64,000 bases of DNA, taken from assembly GCF_003634215.1 (NCBI RefSeq), contig NZ_RBWX01000007.1, positions 854,945 to 918,944 on the forward strand, written 5' to 3'. Positions 7,857-45,870 of the stretch are shown piece by piece. The notes under the pieces were generated by a model. The model saw only the letters and a program-made list of their open reading frames with translations, had not been told where the DNA came from and did no database searches. The translations under genes were made by a program, and so were the position numbers. Source of the stretch: Sphingosinicella microcystinivorans. GTDB taxonomy: Bacteria > Pseudomonadota > Alphaproteobacteria > Sphingomonadales > Sphingomonadaceae. Each line of letters starts with the position of its first letter. The stretch's first letter is position 1.

Positions 7857-8839
7857 TCGGCGGCGGCTTTCATCATGGTGAGGTCGGCGCCCGCCTCGTT
7901 GATGATGTCGCGCAGCACCGACAGGCACCCGGCGAGGTCGCCCTGCGCCGACGGGATCGCCTGCCGCAGCGTCATGCTGCCGTGGATCTGGCCCTTGGCT
8001 TCGCGGAACACCGTCGGCACGCCGCTCGCGATCAGTTTCGCGGCATAGGCGCGGCCCTGATCGCGCAGCGGATCGAGTCCGCAGGTGAAGACGAGCGCGG
8101 CGGGCTGGTTGTCGAGCGCCGGCGAATGCAGCGGCGAAGCGCGTGGATCGGTATGGTCGGGGAGATTCCCGATATAGTGGCGCATGAACCACGCCATGCT
8201 CTCTGCGGTCAGCAGATAGCCGTCCGCGAAGTCCTCCATCGATCCCGTGTTCGCGGTCATGTCGACGCCCGGATAGATCAGCCACTGCGCGATGATCGGC
8301 ACCGGCATCTTTCCGGAGAGTTCCTGTGCCACGATGGCCGCGAGGTTGCCGCCCGCGCTGTCGCCCGCCACGACGATGCTCGTCACCGCGTGCCCGATCT
8401 CCTTGGGCGAGGCGGCCGCCCAGCGCGTCGCGGTAAGGCAGTCCTCGCCCGCCGCGGGGAACGCGTGCTCGGGAGCGAGCCGATAGTCGACCGAAATCAC
8501 GGTGATGTCGAGGCTGCGCGCGATTTCGGCGCACAGGCCATCGTGCGTTTCGAGGTCGCCGACCACCCATCCGCCGCCGTGGAAGTACATCAGCACGCTC
8601 TGCGGCGCGCCGCCCGCCGCGCGCGGGCTGTAGAGCCTCAGCGGAATGCGGTCGCCGTGCGGGCCGTCGATGGCAAGGTCTTCCACCCGCGCGATCTCGC
8701 CGCGCGGCGCTTCGGCCATCTGCACCATCATGCCCATCATCTGGCGGGCCGTGCCGGGATCAAGCTCGTGCAGCTTCGGCCCGGGCTGCGCATTCAGCAT
8801 ATCGAGGAACGCCTGCACGTCTGGACGAACGAAACTCAT
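7853..8839 (-). CDS. Alpha/beta hydrolase, hormone-sensitive-lipase family esterase
   Basis: Carboxylesterase with the HSL-family oxyanion motif YFHGGGWVVGD, nucleophile elbow GDSAGGN, acid region GLDPLRDQG and a His in GQIHGSM. The length, 328 residues, is normal. The start at the ATG ending at 8839 (MSFVRPDVQAF) follows a GGGAG; upstream in-frame codons lack a ribosome site. It is translationally coupled to rppH. The natural substrate is unknown, probably short acyl esters. Confidence 0.92.
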   Translation of the reverse strand: MSFVRPDVQAFLDMLNAQPGPKLHELDPGTARQMMGMMVQMAEAPRGEIARVEDLAIDGPHGDRIPLRLYSPRAAGGAPQSVLMYFHGGGWVVGDLETHDGLCAEIARSLDITVISVDYRLAPEHAFPAAGEDCLTATRWAAASPKEIGHAVTSIVVAGDSAGGNLAAIVAQELSGKMPVPIIAQWLIYPGVDMTANTGSMEDFADGYLLTAESMAWFMRHYIGNLPDHTDPRASPLHSPALDNQPAALVFTCGLDPLRDQGRAYAAKLIASGVPTVFREAKGQIHGSMTLRQAIPSAQGDLAGCLSVLRDIINEAGADLTMMKAAAE

Positions 8840-39680: not shown

Positions 39681-41276
39681 TCACGGACCTAGTGATGCCC
39701 AATCCAATCCAAAGCGAGCGAGATACTTTCTTAGCCGGTCGGCATCGTTCGAGCTGTTGCGGCGCGCTCGTGAGGCGTTGAACAGGGTTCGCCCCGCTTC
39801 CGAGAGCGATCGGCTGGAGCGACATATACGGATCGTTTCGGCAAGTTGCACGCGATCGAACAGGTCGAGATTGGCAATTCTGTCGTCGCCCAATACTTGG
39901 GAAAGAATGCCGGCAGGATTGTCGGTCTGCCCCGACCAAAGGCGCCGCAGCCGCTCGATTTCCTTGTCGACGCAGTCCACATCAATACGGCCTTTCGGGC
40001 TGAGCGTGGACATGCGTGTCACGCTTGCCGCAAGGTCACGAAAATTCCCCGGCCAGCGTGCTTCGCCTGACGTCGCGAACGCAAGATAGCGCTGGCGTGC
40101 TTCCTTGTTGAAGCTCGCCTGATTTCCCTCGCGTTCGGCGAAGCGGTCGAGTTCATAGTCGAGATTGGGCGCTATATCCTCACGCCGGTCAGCAAGGCCG
40201 GGCAAACTGAAAGTCCAAAGGTTCAGGCGCGCATAAAGGTCGTCGCGGAAGGCGCCGGCGCCTACCGCTTCACCCAGGTCTCGATTGGTGCCGGCGATGA
40301 GCTGGAAATCAGATGCGACCTCTTTGTCGGCGCCGACAGGCAGGAAGCGTTTGTCTTCAATAGCACGGAGGATCATCGCCTGTTCGTCGACACCAAGTTC
40401 GCCAATCTCGTCGAGGAACAGCATGCCTTTGTCGGCAGACCGGAGCAGACCCGGCCGATCGGCGACGGCACCCGTGAAGGCGCCCTTGCGATGGCCGAAC
40501 AAAGCCGACGTCGCACTGTCGCCCTTCAGCGTCGCACAATTCACCTCTACGAATGACCCGGCGATCTGGTGTTTGGCTTTTTTCAATTCGTAGATTCTTC
40601 GCGCAAGCTGGCTTTTGCCCGCGCCAGTCGGCCCCATCAGCAGCACTGGCGCGCGGGACCGCAGCGCAACCTGCTCGATCTCATCGATCATGCGGTTGAA
40701 GGCGGCATTGCGCGTGTCGATGCCGGACTTGAGGTAAGATGTGCTCTCCGCGCTCGCAACGGCAAAACGGGTGGCGATGCTGTCATAGCGCGACAGGTCG
40801 AGGTCGATGATGCTCCAGCGGCCGGGCGCCCCGCCATCCTCGGCACGTTTGGCCGGCTGGGTCTGGAGCAGGCGCCCCGGCAAATAGCGCGCCTCGGTCA
40901 GCAGGAAGAGGCATATTTGCGCGACGTGCGTGCCAGTGGTGATGTGGAGGAGATAATCCTGCTCGTCCGGATCGAACGGCTCGGCGCGCGCGAAGTCGAG
41001 CAGCTTTCCATAGACCTCCTCGAAGTCCCAAGCGTCGCGGAAATCAAGGACTCGCATGTCGACCTGGGTCTCGGGCGAGACCGAAGCGATGTCTTCGGCG
41101 ACATATTCAGCTAGGCGCCGGTGGGCTGTGCTGTGGAGCAGCACCAATCGATCGATCCGCAAATCCTCATGCATCGTGAGCGCGACCGTCGGCCGCCACT
41201 TGTTCCAGCGTGATGGCCCGAATTTGCTCGCATCGAGTGTAGAGCCAATGAATCCAATGACGGTGAGGGGTTTCAT
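39681..41276 (-). CDS. rtcR: RtcR, sigma-54-dependent activator of RNA repair genes
   Basis: A 531-residue enhancer-binding protein. Residues 1-180 are the CARF-type sensor (VIGFIGSTLD, LLHITTGTHVAQICLFLL) that in E. coli and Salmonella senses RNA ends with 2',3'-cyclic phosphate. The AAA+ domain has Walker A GPTGAGKS (215-222), the sigma-54 contact loop GAFTGA (265-270) and Walker B GMLFLDEIGE. A C-terminal Fis-like DNA-binding region follows. The ATG ending at 41276 gives the same N-terminus and length as E. coli RtcR. Divergent from the operon it should control, across 245 bases. Confidence 0.96.
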   Translation of the reverse strand: MKPLTVIGFIGSTLDASKFGPSRWNKWRPTVALTMHEDLRIDRLVLLHSTAHRRLAEYVAEDIASVSPETQVDMRVLDFRDAWDFEEVYGKLLDFARAEPFDPDEQDYLLHITTGTHVAQICLFLLTEARYLPGRLLQTQPAKRAEDGGAPGRWSIIDLDLSRYDSIATRFAVASAESTSYLKSGIDTRNAAFNRMIDEIEQVALRSRAPVLLMGPTGAGKSQLARRIYELKKAKHQIAGSFVEVNCATLKGDSATSALFGHRKGAFTGAVADRPGLLRSADKGMLFLDEIGELGVDEQAMILRAIEDKRFLPVGADKEVASDFQLIAGTNRDLGEAVGAGAFRDDLYARLNLWTFSLPGLADRREDIAPNLDYELDRFAEREGNQASFNKEARQRYLAFATSGEARWPGNFRDLAASVTRMSTLSPKGRIDVDCVDKEIERLRRLWSGQTDNPAGILSQVLGDDRIANLDLFDRVQLAETIRICRSSRSLSEAGRTLFNASRARRNSSNDADRLRKYLARFGLDWASLGP

Positions 41277-41366
41277 TTTTATATTGTAGGATAAAATCGT
41301 ATCTGTTGCGATAAAGAATTTAATCGTCGTCCAGCGAGATATGGCGCGCGTCCAAAAAATAAACCG

Positions 41367-41382
41367 TTCCATATCAATGGAA
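41367..41382. promoter_or_regulatory. Inverted repeat, candidate RtcR binding site
   Basis: TTCCAT (41367-41372) and ATGGAA (41377-41382) around ATCA, about 30 bases upstream of the -24 element. A single such site is closer to the promoter than most sigma-54 enhancers, so other sites in the AT-rich stretch 41277-41340 may matter. The assignment is inference. Confidence 0.35.
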
Positions 41383-41411
41383 TGAGAATTTTATGGTTTC
41401 TTGCCAGCAAG

Positions 41412-41427
41412 TTGGCACGCCTCCTGC
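41412..41427 (+). promoter_or_regulatory. Sigma-54 (-24/-12) promoter of the RNA-repair operon
   Basis: TTGGCACGCCTCCTGC carries the invariant GG (-24) and GC (-12) exactly 10 bases apart and matches TGGCACGNNNNNTGC. It points at the tRNA-like gene and rsr and is paired with the divergent sigma-54 activator rtcR. Transcription should begin near 41438-41440. Confidence 0.93.
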
Positions 41428-41476
41428 GATATGGATTTTCGTCGGTCGAGCTGATTGTTCGGTCGGCAGGCGGAAC

Positions 41477-41506
41477 TGGGGCGGTCGGAATGGGCTGGCC
41501 GCCCCA
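41477..41506 (+). other. Leader hairpin before the tRNA-like RNA
   Basis: TGGGGCGG (41477-41484) pairs perfectly with CCGCCCCA (41499-41506), and CGGTC (41460-41464) with GACCG (41509-41513) outside it. It lies in the roughly 80-nt leader between the sigma-54 start and the tRNA-like RNA and may mark a processing boundary. Confidence 0.5.
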
Positions 41507-41521
41507 AGGACCGGAAATTCA

Positions 41522-41598
41522 CAGGGCGTAGCTCAGTCTGCGCAGAGCGCCTGCCTTTGAGCAGGAGGCCGCAGGTTCAAATCCTGCCGCCCTGACCA
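41522..41598 (+). ncRNA. tRNA-like RNA with 6-nt anticodon loop, first gene of the repair operon
   Basis: A 77-nt cloverleaf with a perfect 7-bp acceptor (CAGGGCG/CGCCCTG), TA linker, D-arm GCTC/GAGC with a 10-nt loop, 5-bp anticodon stem CCTGC/GCAGG, variable AGGCC, T-arm GCAGG-TTCAAAT-CCTGC, discriminator A and encoded CCA. The anticodon loop is CTTTGA, only 6 nt, so normal decoding is unlikely. It starts about 80 bases after the sigma-54 promoter, and the rsr ATG is 16 bases after its CCA. It may serve as a decoy, RtcB/RtcA substrate or damage reporter; these are inferences. Confidence 0.85.
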
Positions 41599-41614
41599 GA
41601 TGAGGAGTTGGACG

Positions 41615-43162
41615 ATGGCCAACAAGGGACTATTTGCGAGCGCCGTGGCGAAGCTGCTGCCGCGCACCGATACGCTGAACCGGGAGGGCGCGCCGGCCTA
41701 TGCCTATAGACCGAAGGCCAAGCTCGCCCAACTCGCGGCGACAGGCACGCTGGCCGACAATTTCTACGGCGCGGCGGAGACGCAGCTTGCCGATGTGCTG
41801 GATGCTGCTCGCGTTGTCGATCCGTACTTTGTTGCCCAGACTGCGATCTATGCCCGCACCTCCGGCGCGATGAAGGATATGCCGGCTTTGCTGGCAGCAT
41901 ATCTGACGGTTGCCGATCCTGACCTTGCGGTCAGGGTCTTCGGCCAGGTCGTGAACAGCGGTCGCATGCTGCGCAGCTTCGTACAAATCATGCGGTCGGG
42001 GCAGGTCGGGCGTACGTCGCTTGGCACGCGGCCGAAGCGGCTGGTCCAGCAGTGGCTGGAGCAGGCATCGATGCGTGACCTGATGCAGGCCGCGACCGGC
42101 AATGCGCCGAGCCTGGCGGACATCGTAAAGATGGTCCACCCGCGTCCCGCTGATGCGCAGCGCAAGGCTTTCTATGGCTGGCTGATCGGTCGTCCCTATG
42201 ACGTTACCGCTCTGCCCGCCGAGATCGCTGCGTTCGAGACCTGGAAACAGGATCGCACGCTGCCGCTGCCACAGGTTCCGTTCGAGTGGCTGACTGCTTA
42301 TCCGCTGGGCGCGGAGCAGTGGGCGGAGCTCGCCGGTCGCATGGGCTGGCAGGCGCTGCGGATGAACCTCAACGCCCTCGCGCGCGCAGGCGCGTTTGGG
42401 GTGGAGGGGTTCACCGAGAAGGTCGCGGGTCGGCTTGCCGACCGCAATGCGCTCCTTGCCGTGCGGCCCATGCCCTATCAGTTGATGCTGGCGCTGGGGC
42501 AGGTGAGTGACGGCGTGCCGCTCAAGGTGCATGCAGCGCTCGAGGACGCGCTGGAGCTCTCGCTCCGGAGCGTACCACAGGTGCCGGGCCGCGTGGTCGT
42601 CTGTCCCGACGTGTCCGGGTCGATGAAATCGCCGGTAACGGGCTACCGCAGGGGCGCTTCGTCGAAGGTGCGCTGCATTGATGTCGCGGCTCTCGTCACG
42701 GCGGCGATGCTGCGGTCCAACGGCCAGGCGCGGGTTATCCCATTCGAGCAGGCCATTGTGCCGGTGATGCTGAGGGCGACTGACCGGGTCGCGGTGAATG
42801 CTGCGACACTGGCTGCAGTCGGCGGTGGCGGGACGAATGTCTCTGCGCCTCTCGCTCTCCTCAACAAGGAGAAGGCGGCGGTCGATCTCGTCATTATCGT
42901 CTCGGACAACGAGTCCTGGGTCGATGCGACGCGGGGCGGTTCAACTGCGACGATGCAGGAGTGGACGAAGCTGGCGAAGCGCAATCCGCAGGCAAAACTC
43001 GTCTGCATCGACATCGCGCCTTACGGCACGACGCAGGCAGCGAGCCGGCGGGATATATTGAACGTCGGAGGCTTCTCCGACGCGGTGTTCGTCACCATCG
43101 CGCGTTTCGTCTCCGGCGAGACGCACGACTGGGTGAGCATCGTCGAACAAGTGGAGGTCTGA
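41615..43162 (+). CDS. rsr: Rsr, bacterial Ro60 orthologue (TROVE + vWA)
   Basis: A 515-residue ring-shaped RNA-binding protein. In other bacteria Ro60 binds Y RNAs and misfolded RNAs and can link them to the exonuclease PNPase. Residues about 10-320 form the TROVE HEAT-repeat ring (KLAQLAATGTLADNFY near the N-terminus), and residues 325-515 the vWA domain with the MIDAS motif DVSGS (332-336) and SDNES. The ATG at 41615 follows GAGGAG; an ATG at 41600 has none. It lies between the tRNA-like RNA and three Y-RNA genes. Confidence 0.95.
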   Translation: MANKGLFASAVAKLLPRTDTLNREGAPAYAYRPKAKLAQLAATGTLADNFYGAAETQLADVLDAARVVDPYFVAQTAIYARTSGAMKDMPALLAAYLTVADPDLAVRVFGQVVNSGRMLRSFVQIMRSGQVGRTSLGTRPKRLVQQWLEQASMRDLMQAATGNAPSLADIVKMVHPRPADAQRKAFYGWLIGRPYDVTALPAEIAAFETWKQDRTLPLPQVPFEWLTAYPLGAEQWAELAGRMGWQALRMNLNALARAGAFGVEGFTEKVAGRLADRNALLAVRPMPYQLMLALGQVSDGVPLKVHAALEDALELSLRSVPQVPGRVVVCPDVSGSMKSPVTGYRRGASSKVRCIDVAALVTAAMLRSNGQARVIPFEQAIVPVMLRATDRVAVNAATLAAVGGGGTNVSAPLALLNKEKAAVDLVIIVSDNESWVDATRGGSTATMQEWTKLAKRNPQAKLVCIDIAPYGTTQAASRRDILNVGGFSDAVFVTIARFVSGETHDWVSIVEQVEV

Positions 43163-43169
43163 ACGAACA

Positions 43170-43329
43170 GGGTCGTGGCGAATGCTGGCAGGACTACATG
43201 TCACCAGAGGAGGCCCGACGAGTAAAGCGCCCGAAAGGCAGTTGTGCCGGAAGGGAGATGCGGGTTCGAACCCCGCCGCCGACACGTAGCTTAAGGGCCG
43301 CGTCTTGCCGTCCCTCGTCGCCACGACCC
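43170..43329 (+). ncRNA. Y RNA 1 (Ro60-associated), divergent tRNA-like domain
   Basis: The ends pair in a perfect 12-bp stem: GGGTCGTGGCGA (43170-43181) with TCGCCACGACCC (43318-43329). After an internal loop, GGCAGGAC (43187-43194) pairs with GTCTTGCC (43302-43309, one G:U). Inside are hairpin GGCA-GTTG-TGCC (43237-43248), a T-arm GCGGG-TTCGAAC-CCCGC (43260-43276) and GGCCC/GGGCC (43212-43216 with 43295-43299). It shares GGCGAATGC and GGACTACA with units 2 and 3. It begins 7 bases after the rsr stop. This end-paired stem with a tRNA-like head is the layout of bacterial Y RNAs. Confidence 0.8.
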
Positions 43330-43340
43330 GACCAGAATAT

Positions 43341-43460
43341 CATGGCGAATGCCTGTGGAACTACATGGATTTCAGGGTCGACGGTTCGAATCCGTCCGGG
43401 TGCATCCCGTAGCTCAGTGGATAGAGCATGAAACTGTTTCACGACCCCCTTGTCGCCATG
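43341..43460 (+). ncRNA. Y RNA 2 with circularly permuted tRNA-like domain
   Basis: Outer stem CATGGCGA (43341-43348) with TCGCCATG (43453-43460). The head is a tRNA read from the middle: stem GGGTC (43375-43379) with GACCC (43443-43447), T-arm GACGG-TTCGAAT-CCGTC (43380-43396), a closed acceptor CGGG-TGCAT-CCCG (43397-43409), linker TA, D-arm GCTC-AGTGGATA-GAGC (43412-43427) and a small hairpin TGAAA-CTG-TTTCA. The acceptor is sealed by a 5-nt loop, and the RNA ends sit where the anticodon arm would be. Conserved GGCGAATGC and GGAACTACA are present. Confidence 0.85.
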
Positions 43461-43472
43461 GCACCGATTGAA

Positions 43473-43575
43473 GCTGGCGAATGCCGGTGGGACTACACGG
43501 TTGAGGTCGAAAGGCCGAGCGGTTCGAATCCGCCCCGGAGCAATCCGGGATGTCTCGCCAAAACTCGTCGCCGGC
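43473..43575 (+). ncRNA. Y RNA 3, reduced tRNA-like domain
   Basis: Outer stem GCTGGCGA (43473-43480) with TCGCCGGC (43568-43575; one G:U). It contains GGCGAATGC and GGGACTACA, hairpin GGTC-GAAA-GGCC, T-arm GCGG-TTCGAAT-CCGC (43519-43533) and a sealed acceptor CCCGG-AGCAAT-CCGGG (43534-43549). No D-arm is recognisable. It ends 26 bases before the rtcB start, with the rtcB ribosome site between. Confidence 0.8.
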
Positions 43576-43600
43576 ACCATGACCATGTAAGGAGGTCGAG

Positions 43601-44830
43601 ATGACCGAGAGTAAAACCTACGACATTCAACACGTCGAAGGCGGCAAGCCGATCAAGCTGTGGACGCGCGGTGTGCCAGTTGACGAGAAGGCGCATGAGC
43701 AGCTCCGCAAGGCGGCGCAGATGCCCTTTGTGTTCAAACATGTGGCGGCGATGCCGGATGTGCATGTCGGCATAGGTGCGACCGTTGGCTCGGTGATCCC
43801 GACCAAGGGTGCCGTCATTCCAGCAGCGGTCGGGGTCGATATCGGCTGCGGCATGATGGCCGCGCGCACGTCGCTCACGGCAAGCGATCTTCCGGACAAT
43901 CTGGAGGGCGTACGCTTGGCGATAGAGCGCGCCGTGCCGCATGGGCGCAGCGTCAACCGGAACAAGCGCGATACCGGCTCGTGGGGTGATCCGCCGGCCG
44001 AGATTGTGGCGGCCTGGGCGACGCTCATCGAGCGTTTCGACCGGATCACGGAAAAGTACCCGCGGTTCAAGAACACGAACCAGTTGACCCATCTCGGCAC
44101 GCTGGGAACGGGCAACCACTTCATCGAGCTCTGTCTCGATACCGAGCAGCGCGTGTGGATCATGCTCCACTCGGGATCGCGCGGTGTGGGGAATGCAATC
44201 GGCACGTTCTTCATTGAGCTGGCCAAGCAGGACATGCGCAAGTGGTTCATCAACCTGCCTGACGAGGATATGGCTTACTTCCCGGAAGGGACGGACCATT
44301 TCGACGACTATGTCGAAGCGGTCGAGTGGGCGCAGGACTTCGCCGCGCTGAACCGCCGGATGATGATGACGAACGTGATCCGGGCGCTGCGCGGCCAGAT
44401 CGCTAAGCCTTTCGACGCAGAGCTGGAAGCGGTGAACTGCCATCACAATTATGTGACGCGCGAGAACCATTTCGGCGAGAATGTGCTCGTGACCCGCAAA
44501 GGCGCAGTGCGCGCGGCGAAGGGCGCGATGGGCATCATCCCGGGTTCGATGGGCGCGAAATCGTTCATCGTGCGCGGTCTCGGCAATGCGGAATCGTTCG
44601 AGAGCTGCAGCCATGGCGCGGGGCGTGTGATGTCACGCACCCAGGCCAAGAAGCTGGTCTCGCTCGACGAGCATATCGCCGATACGGCGGGCGTCGAATG
44701 CCGGAAGGACGAGAGCGTCATCGACGAGACGCCCAAGGCCTACAAGCCGATCGAAGCCGTGATGGCCGCCCAGGCCGATCTGGTGGAAATCGTTCATACG
44801 TTGAAGCAGGTGGTGTGCGTGAAGGGATAA
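43601..44830 (+). CDS. rtcB: RNA-splicing ligase RtcB
   Basis: GTP- and Mn-dependent ligase joining 2',3'-cyclic or 3'-phosphate RNA ends to 5'-OH ends. The 409 residues include the GMP-accepting His in CSHGAGR (His338), metal ligands in VGVDIGCGM (Asp80, Cys83) and GTGNHF, plus HSGSRGVGN and NCHHNYV. GGAGGTCGAG precedes the ATG. This is the short, operon-linked RtcB like that of E. coli, downstream of the Y RNAs. Confidence 0.97.
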   Translation: MTESKTYDIQHVEGGKPIKLWTRGVPVDEKAHEQLRKAAQMPFVFKHVAAMPDVHVGIGATVGSVIPTKGAVIPAAVGVDIGCGMMAARTSLTASDLPDNLEGVRLAIERAVPHGRSVNRNKRDTGSWGDPPAEIVAAWATLIERFDRITEKYPRFKNTNQLTHLGTLGTGNHFIELCLDTEQRVWIMLHSGSRGVGNAIGTFFIELAKQDMRKWFINLPDEDMAYFPEGTDHFDDYVEAVEWAQDFAALNRRMMMTNVIRALRGQIAKPFDAELEAVNCHHNYVTRENHFGENVLVTRKGAVRAAKGAMGIIPGSMGAKSFIVRGLGNAESFESCSHGAGRVMSRTQAKKLVSLDEHIADTAGVECRKDESVIDETPKAYKPIEAVMAAQADLVEIVHTLKQVVCVKG

Positions 44831-44856: not shown

Positions 44857-45870
44857 ATGATCATCATTGAAGGGTCGGAAGGCGAAGGTGGTGGGCAGGT
44901 CGTGCGCAATGCATGCGCGCTTTCGCTCGTCACTGGCAAGGCCGTCCGGATCGAGAATGTCCGCGCCAAGCGGTCGAAGCCGGGGCTCATGCGTCAGCAT
45001 GTGACGGCAGTCGAAGCCGCGTGTGTCATTGGAAATGCTGAATGCCAGGGGCTCCATGTCGGATCATCTGTGCTCAGCTTCACGCCGGGCCGCGTCGCGC
45101 CGGGCGAGTATCACTTCGCGGTCGGCACGGCGGGGTCGACGGGTCTTGTCCTGCAGACAGTGCTCATGCCGCTGCTGCTTGCCGATGCACCTTCGCGGGT
45201 GGTGTTGGAGGGCGGTACGCACAACATGCTCGCGCCACCTTTTGATTTCATTGAAAAATGCTTCTTGCCAGTCATCAACCGCATGGGACCAACGGTGGAG
45301 GCTCGACTTGTCCGGCACGGTTTCTATCCGCGCGGTGGCGGCAGGATCGAGGTTGATATCAGCCCGGCGCCACTGAGACCCATTGATTGTCTCGAGCGGG
45401 GCGCTCTGATTGGCGTCAGTGGTCAGGCTCTCCTCGCAGGTTTGCCGTTCGAGATCGCTGAGCGCGAGATCAAAATGGTGCGTCGCGAACTTGGCTGGTC
45501 GGACCGAGAGGCCGGCATCCGCGAGCTCCCCGACGATCAGGGACCAGGCAACATCCTGTTGCTCGAAGCGCAGTTCGAACATGGCACTGAGATCGTAAGC
45601 GGCTTCGGCCAGTTGGGCGTGACCGCTGAACGCGTAGCCAAGAAGGCGGTCGGGCGGATGCTTGGGTTCTTGGAATCCAAAGCCTTTGCCGGCCCCTATC
45701 TGGCCGATCAGTTGCTGCTTCCCTTCGCGCTCGCTGGCGGAGGCAGTTTCACGACAGTCAAGCCGAGCCAGCATAGCCTGACGGCAATCGACGTGATTGG
45801 GCGCTTCCTGGATCGGCGGCTTGCGTTCTCCCAGCGGCCCAGTGGGATGCACTTGCTCACCGTGCAGTAA
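44857..45870 (+). CDS. rtcA: RNA 3'-terminal phosphate cyclase RtcA
   Basis: ATP-dependent conversion of an RNA 3'-phosphate to a 2',3'-cyclic phosphate, making ends suitable for RtcB. The 337 residues have IIIEGSEGEGGGQVVRNA, GGTHNMLAPPFDFI, RHGFYPRGGGRIEVD and the catalytic His in KPSQHSLTAIDV. AGGGGGAA precedes the ATG at 44857. It is the last gene of the sigma-54 operon. Confidence 0.97.
   Translation: MIIIEGSEGEGGGQVVRNACALSLVTGKAVRIENVRAKRSKPGLMRQHVTAVEAACVIGNAECQGLHVGSSVLSFTPGRVAPGEYHFAVGTAGSTGLVLQTVLMPLLLADAPSRVVLEGGTHNMLAPPFDFIEKCFLPVINRMGPTVEARLVRHGFYPRGGGRIEVDISPAPLRPIDCLERGALIGVSGQALLAGLPFEIAEREIKMVRRELGWSDREAGIRELPDDQGPGNILLLEAQFEHGTEIVSGFGQLGVTAERVAKKAVGRMLGFLESKAFAGPYLADQLLLPFALAGGGSFTTVKPSQHSLTAIDVIGRFLDRRLAFSQRPSGMHLLTVQ

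Follow-up and report, generated by a model that had tools for sequence, protein, structure and literature searches.

The YrlA Y RNA of Salmonella, filed in Rfam as RF02553, is said to have been described by Chen et al. in 2014 (cited by PMC8394870). Two Y RNAs in one operon are already known from the Salmonella RNA repair operon rsr-yrlBA-rtcBA, whose regulator RtcR is switched on by tRNA 5' fragments bearing a cyclic phosphate (PMC7790460). Y RNAs have further been described as gating Rsr and tethering it to PNPase, and YrlA as being modified by tRNA enzymes (PMC8394870, PMC4726728). In this study a stretch of 64,000 nucleotides (nt) from Sphingosinicella microcystinivorans was analysed (contig NZ_RBWX01000007.1, positions 854,945 to 918,944; hereafter the window), in which three structured units lie in tandem between rsr and rtcB, at the place where the original prediction had put three Y-RNA-like genes. 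Judged from sequence, we put at roughly 85% the probability that these are the bacterial Y RNAs of a stress-induced RtcR/sigma-54 operon, rsr-Y1-Y2-Y3-rtcB-rtcA; the Y-RNA-like identity is backed by the location between rsr and rtcB, similarity to Rfam YrlA, covarying end stems, and families common to relatives. Covariation accompanies the conservation of the handles and of many head helices, and each of the three heads represents a different family of a larger repertoire; it is this variety of heads, and not the number three, which is the interesting part.

The units resemble YrlA in their place beside rsr and rtcBA, in the head of unit 2, which is opened at the anticodon, and in the handle motif GNCGAANG, which we take to be that of bacterial Y RNAs and which is matched by GGCGAATG on the 5' strand of the end stem in all three units; they differ from it in their scores below the Rfam cutoff, in the other heads of units 1 and 3, and in the presence of three families side by side. 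As in Salmonella (PMC7790460), rtcR is divergent from rsr, and Y RNAs, rtcB and rtcA follow, but the present operon has one Y RNA from each of three families, and its leader contains a tRNA-Pro-like gene. An Rsr-binding stem joined to an effector domain is shared with the Deinococcus Y RNA and its RYPER complex, in which the tether to PNPase has been demonstrated, whereas the present units are known from sequence alone (PMC8394870, PMC4726728). Circularly permuted tRNA genes likewise hold tRNA parts in a permuted order (PMC3978253); in the units, unlike in those genes, the parts are closed into a handle and there is neither a free CCA end nor an anticodon, so that a working tRNA would not be expected. 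Conserved multi-family arrays with different head topologies may be a new variant; among the titles listed in our literature searches there was none on Y RNAs opened in the D-loop, from which we make no claim of absence from print.

The units measure approximately 160, 122 and 103 nt with spacers of 10 and 11 nt, in agreement to within 1-2 nt with the sizes (160, 120 and 103 nt) and spacers (11-12 nt) first proposed. Each is indeed closed by a paired 5'/3' end stem, and a T-arm-like hairpin with TTCGAA and the closing CTYG-TCGCC are found in all three; the sequence GG-N-ACTACA-YG, which had been ascribed to every unit, is present in units 2 and 3, whilst unit 1 reads AGGACTACATG in its place. 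Unit 1 comprises a 12-base-pair (bp) handle, P2 (GGCAGGAC/GTCTTGCC), P3 (GGCCC/GGGCC) and a D-stem-like pairing (AAGC/GCTT), its head further containing a capped 'anticodon' arm, a T-arm and a 2-bp acceptor stub. Unit 2 has an anticodon stem (TTTCA/TGAAA), a T-arm, an acceptor hairpin (CGGG-TGCAT-CCCG) and a D-arm (GCTC..GAGC), and unit 3 a handle, P2, a hairpin (GGTC-GAAA-GGCC), a T-arm and an acceptor hairpin, with no D-arm found by the patterns used. The motif GGCGAATGC starts at 43177, 43344 and 43476 in the three units; six copies occur in the whole window against 2.28 expected and, because 3 of 100 shuffles reach that number, the motif by itself is weak evidence.

A scan with Rsr gave 80 related loci, 74 of which, together with the window, have a readable spacer (L063, L064, L066, L073 and L082 were left out as unreadable, and L072 because it seemed to be almost a duplicate of L071; in L074 and L079 the spacer was taken as far as rtcA, and in L028 as far as the contig end). 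The stem-guided parse of these spacers requires the handle motif and an end stem, and its counts of these thus cannot serve as independent evidence. Some units escape it (one in L009), and in distant loci, for example L067, its calls are uncertain. Six units were parsed in 3 of the 75 spacers, five in 20, four in 27, three in 15, two in 8, one in 1 and none in 1. The argument that most operons have one or two Y RNAs, which would make three notable, fails for this clade on these counts: 65 of the 75 spacers hold at least three, and the array of the window is slightly below the usual size. In a distant family, 5 of 119 genomes have three YrlA matches each. By similarity, 288 parsed units from the 74 loci cluster into families, which are a convenience and no phylogeny; units 1, 2 and 3 of the window belong to family 1 (39 units), family 6 (13) and family 0 (51), respectively. 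Some short units of approximately 70-80 nt possess the handle (e.g., L010 4242-4310 and L012 8015-8087; families 8 and 9, with 9 and 6 units); no T-arm was found in these, and they may be Y RNAs that lack a tRNA-like head.

Covariation of the end stems in homologous loci, the absence of which had been named beforehand as one of two outcomes that would refute the prediction, was found: two-sided changes occur in 7 of 11 end-stem pairs in the family of unit 1, 4 of 9 in that of unit 2, and 2 of 8 in that of unit 3. For the whole structures, counts were compared with slid versions of the alignments and with 500 shuffles. In family 1 (39 of 39 units aligned), 97.5% of cells are paired and 21 of 41 pairs show two-sided changes against 2-8 in slid versions, a level reached by none of the shuffles (4 of 500 for further pair types). 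Family 6 (13 of 13 units) has 96.4% paired cells and two-sided changes in 12 of 34 pairs (slid 1-4; shuffles 0/500), and family 3, which is absent from the window, 97.3% and 14 of 33 (34 of 37 units; slid at most 6; shuffles 0/500), with an invariant D-stem. In family 0 (32 of 51 units) 96.6% of cells are paired and 5 of 28 pairs changed on both sides, with 2 of 500 shuffles as high; 14 cells show a two-sided change compared with at most 7 when slid, where paired cells also fall to 52.3% or less. Three results speak against the main reading: slid versions of family 0 also reach 5 changed pairs, so that this measure does not discriminate; further pair types in family 6 are no more frequent than in shuffles (224/500); and the D-stem of family 6 is invariant in the alignment. 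Covariation support is lowest, and weak, for unit 3. The T- and D-arm sequences, and a tRNA-Pro-like gene with an abnormal anticodon loop in the same operon, could suggest that the units are functionless debris of tRNA genes, which we hold to be extremely improbable given the covarying handles and heads in the families of units 1 and 2 (the case being weakest for unit 3) and the related units in Sphingomonadales and beyond.

Detection of the units by models built elsewhere points the same way. R2 and R3 were built from other species, with the window and its nearest relatives L004-L006 withheld, using 26 of the 39 members of family 1 and 28 of the 51 of family 0, respectively; R2 recovers unit 1 and R3 unit 3 at the scores given in Table 1, the best scores in the window outside the array being 13.7 bits (R2) and 13.1 bits (R3). 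Single-sequence folding (z of -2.66, -1.58 and -2.83 for units 1-3) is weaker evidence than these models. On the other side, all three units score under the curated gathering score of Rfam YrlA, 69 bits, and are for that reason not filed under RF02553, with unit 1 attaining an E-value of just 0.055. For unit 1, the best fold obtained from the sequence alone departs from the family structure in its interior. No further Rfam YrlA match was found in the genome itself at E up to 1, and ARAGORN calls no tRNA in any of the three units.

A further model, R1, was run on 385 and 398 genomes and 15 loci were examined. At E <=1e-8, the own genome aside, 9 of 9 loci adjoin an RtcB gene and 8 of 9 adjoin rsr, the RtcB being distant (24-26% identity) in L130, L141, L142 and L143. 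The six weaker loci examined are all ordinary tRNAs; at E <=1e-4 R1 matches 55 of 398 genomes and, since ordinary tRNAs match, such lax thresholds cannot be read as Y RNAs. In L129 a Y-RNA-like unit (at 1501) is flanked by rtcR and rtcB, and the stretch examined contains no rsr. L141, L142 and L143 encode an Rsr 52-57% identical, and an RtcB-like protein only 24-25% identical, to those of the window; 6, 7 (some uncertain) and 4 Y units were parsed in them, with Leu-like heads in L141 and L142. In the parse of these further loci the boundaries of a few units in L142 and L160 are overlapping or wrong.

The heads differ in topology. Unit 2 aligns over its full length to the Rfam YrlA model, and in both the head runs through T-arm, acceptor hairpin and D-arm, with the anticodon stem joining the handle; the head of unit 2 has the Rfam YrlA topology, a circularly permuted tRNA whose opening lies at the anticodon. 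Neither unit 1, in which the order of arms is different, nor unit 3 has a head of this type. Family 3 presents another order, namely the 3' strand of the D-stem (GG..AGAGC), an anticodon arm with a replaced loop, the variable loop, the T-arm, the acceptor hairpin and finally the 5' strand of the D-stem (TAGCTCA), for which the interpretation as a tRNA opened in the D-loop is well supported. When heads were rotated at the acceptor hairpin and their best similarity to 42 tRNAs of this genome was scored, rotation improved all 101 anticodon-opened units (mean 32.5, compared with 22.1 unrotated, 26.6 for random rotation and 12.2 shuffled) and all 37 units of family 3 (28.6 against 24.3, 23.5 and 11.9).

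Unit 1 can be drawn with the part order of family 3 (AAAGC, capped arm, T-arm, 2-bp acceptor stub, TAGCTTAA), and we lean towards regarding its head, too, as a D-loop-opened tRNA whose anticodon arm is capped. We go no further since rotation is flat in families 7 and 10 (5 of 8 and 0 of 5 improved), the other long D-loop-opened families, and the strict D-loop parser rejects unit 1 of the window. The following also count against this drawing: rotation improves 12 of 38 units of family 1 (19.4 against 19.0); its D-stem shows two-sided change in only L023, L056 and L062 (AGAGC with GCTC), which form one clade and represent a single event; and RNAalifold prefers another pairing at the D-stem columns. 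The head of unit 3 is a reduced form of T-arm plus acceptor hairpin, with a hairpin GGTC-GAAA-GGCC that seems to resemble a long variable arm; its family 0 is flat under rotation as well (9 of 48 improved), a point against the main reading.

The setting is that of an RtcR-regulated RNA repair operon, with a divergently transcribed rtcR, a sigma-54 promoter and rtcB-rtcA (Table 1); the plus strand carries, in order, the promoter, a tRNA-like gene, rsr, units 1, 2 and 3, rtcB and rtcA. A laxer pattern detects a sigma-54-like site in 76 of 81 regions upstream of rsr. The start of rsr is likelier at the ATG at 41615, preceded by GAGGAG, than at the beginning of the longest frame; the TROVE match of Rsr (22.3 bits) lies under the Pfam cutoff of 23, and Rsr is up to 90% identical to that of relatives carrying the same operon.

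Table 1. Positions in the window of the units, the operon genes and the leader elements
Feature	Position	Strand	End stem	Basis
Y RNA unit 1 (family 1)	43170..43329	+	43170-43181/43318-43329	Model R2 140.2 bits, 4.7e-40; Rfam YrlA 23.5 bits, E 0.055; covariation
Y RNA unit 2 (family 6), YrlA-type	43340..43461	+	43340-43348/43453-43461	Rfam YrlA 65.4 bits, 4.4e-14; covariation; rotation test
Y RNA unit 3 (family 0)	43473..43575	+	43473-43480/43568-43575	Model R3 106.2 bits, 7.9e-27; Rfam YrlA 36.0 bits, E 1.4e-5; weak covariation
rtcR, sigma-54 activator with RtcR sensor domain	39681..41372	-		Pfam RtcR 5.9e-82, Sigma54_activat 2.5e-49
Sigma-54 promoter TTGGCACG-N5-TGC	41412..41427	+		Sole match in window, 0.04 expected
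Leader hairpin GGGGCGGTCGGAATGGGCTGGCCGCCCC	41478..41505	+		Read from sequence
tRNA-Pro-like gene, encoded CCA	41522..41598	+		Rfam tRNA 61.6 bits; ARAGORN 'tRNA-???'
rsr, Ro60 orthologue	41600..43162 (longest frame)	+		Pfam vWA_Ro60 1.2e-17
rtcB, RNA ligase	43601..44830	+		Pfam RtcB 8.5e-129
rtcA, RNA 3'-phosphate cyclase	44857..45870	+		Pfam RTC 2.2e-73

Unit 1 begins after a gap of 7 nt from the stop of rsr, and simple scans detected no sigma-70-type promoter in 41300-43700 and no terminator-like site within 43170-43575. Together with the short spacers, this presumed single transcript would accord with the units being processing or attenuation elements of the rsr-rtcB mRNA, such as cleavage sites separating the messages, and not free RNAs. 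We regard this as quite improbable: each unit keeps its own closed handle, the number in the array varies by species when a single site would suffice, and the YrlA of Salmonella is a separate RNA.

The tRNA-Pro-like gene of the leader ends 1 nt before the longest rsr frame and 16 nt before the ATG at 41615. Its anticodon loop is a 6-nt CTTTGA, compared with CTTGGGA in L004, and the anticodon is TGG in 13 of the 13 relatives matched by one pattern; ordinary tRNA-Pro genes (TGG, CGG and GGG) are present elsewhere in the genome. Of the 80 related loci, 16 have an ARAGORN call of tRNA-Pro(TGG) at the corresponding position and a further 3 have an odd tRNA there; on an Rsr tree of 64 of the 81 sequences, with damaged leader tRNAs labelled by eye, at least 6 changes in its presence are needed. 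In L008 a tRNA-Pro(TGG)-like gene (8150-8227) follows the Y RNA array and does not precede rsr, so that the association of tRNA-Pro with the operon may be independent of any single position. Amongst 36 family 3 heads, 15 are nearest to the leader tRNA of L004 and the other 21 to tRNA-Thr(TGT), whilst the family 3 model scores 28.3 bits on the leader tRNA of the window (41525-41644) against 15.7 at the tRNA-Gly place; a common origin of the family 3 heads and the leader tRNA is possible. The leader hairpin between promoter and rsr is conserved: its loop motif, around GGAATGGG, recurs in 60 of the 81 upstream regions, with the copy of the window falling short of it by one base. The hairpin is possibly a protein site.

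As to function, the handle that the units share, formed by the end stem and P2, is most likely the part that docks on the ring of Rsr, and the head which it presents is variable and tRNA-shaped. By analogy with the Salmonella and Deinococcus literature, RtcR would sense tRNA 5' halves and switch the operon on, Rsr would bind the handle, and the head might link Rsr to a partner that recognises tRNA, for instance PNPase, or else occupy such proteins. The anatomy of the heads suggests that they address proteins which recognise the tRNA elbow or T-arm: all three keep a T-arm, a D-arm is found in unit 2 and probably in unit 1, and there is no normal anticodon loop and no free acceptor end. The original prediction had seen in the three different units specialised guides for Rsr. 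This was not shown, as the heads do differ by conserved family but resemble tRNA-like effector heads; evidence for base-pairing guides was not met, though none was searched for. Uncleavable tRNA decoys or tethers would appear to be better hypotheses, the absence of an anticodon loop in either permutation being in keeping with a decoy or tether that cannot be cut.

Under the first of these hypotheses, which concerns only the function of the heads, Rsr-held tRNA mimics would act as non-cleavable decoys: once a putative anticodon nuclease has cut tRNAs and the halves have triggered RtcR, the mimics would bind and block the nuclease whilst RtcB and RtcA mend the cut tRNAs. Hughes et al. (2020, PMC7790460) suggest that the tRNA-like domain of YrlA may compete with tRNA for the nuclease, and report that no YrlA fragments were seen. 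In families 1, 3, 7 and 10, 62 of 92 units parse as D-loop-opened (22, 33, 2 and 5), the unit 1 of the window being one of the 30 that do not, and of these 62 one (L042) has a normal 7-nt anticodon loop, as opposed to 42 of the 43 tRNAs of the genome (all but the leader tRNA). A strict GNRA cap is present in 23 of the 62 heads, each time in one of the 31 loops no longer than 6 nt, and GNRA or UNCG anywhere in loops of up to 17 nt in 45; heads opened at the anticodon have no such loop because they are opened there. As drawn, the three units of the window have neither a 7-nt anticodon loop nor a free CCA end, and the heads would be recognised as tRNA yet not charged, decoded or cut at the anticodon.

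Isotype yields evidence on both sides of the decoy hypothesis. Leu-like units in L141, L142 and L161, all outside the order, have Leu as each of their four best matches and carry a D-stem GCGG/ACGC plus a hairpin of the long-variable-arm type, and 3 of the 4 units of family 11 are Glu-like. L145 1757 is weakly Leu-like (Leu 18.6, Met 17.7) and GCGC/GCGC D-stem pairing is found in three further units; these D-stem types were found by requiring pairing, which is no test of covariation, and 27 of the 37 extra units were unparsed. Against this, most heads are not isotype-specific: family 6 comprises 7 Arg, 5 Phe and 1 Asn, unit 2 itself is Arg-like by a narrow margin (Arg 36.0 and 33.1, Phe 32.9), and the same scoring assigns the right isotype to only 28 of 42 real tRNAs. 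Isotype-specific mimicry as a general rule was set aside as unproven, two scorings giving mixed best isotypes within families; the sole exceptions are the Leu-like units from outside the order and family 11, which is Glu-like. We consider the decoy hypothesis doubtful.

Alternatively, the heads may be tethers that recruit PNPase to Rsr, on the model of the Deinococcus RYPER particle, their diversity being neutral drift of a tolerant domain. RYPER and the recognition of YrlA by tRNA-modifying enzymes are described in reviews (PMC8394870, PMC4726728) and lend this some weight; drift alone, however, predicts neither the recurrence of families across the order nor their preferred places in the array, where family 7 stands first in 11 of 11 cases, family 9 first in 6 of 6, and family 0 last in 38 of 51. 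The combination of tether and drift stays tentative, at somewhat less than an even chance. A broader proposal, which we hold to be unlikely, is that Rsr operons carry evolving repertoires of tRNA mimics of varied kinds, among them Leu with its long variable arm, built in at least two circular permutations: one has its opening at the anticodon, the other within the D-loop, where a cap, often a tetraloop, stands in for the anticodon loop. What these mimics would share is the lack of an anticodon loop, and they would serve as uncleavable, Rsr-held decoys induced by tRNA cleavage.

Whichever role the heads of these probable Y RNAs have, of the 47 units parsed in the 11 loci that were searched, 9 reach the Rfam YrlA cutoff, all nine of them anticodon-opened; surveys using that cutoff would undercount these RNAs, since at it the single model misses most. 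Multi-family arrays permit a head-by-head comparison inside one cell, which would ask what proteins each head binds, and how the removal of a head affects the cleavage or repair of particular tRNAs.
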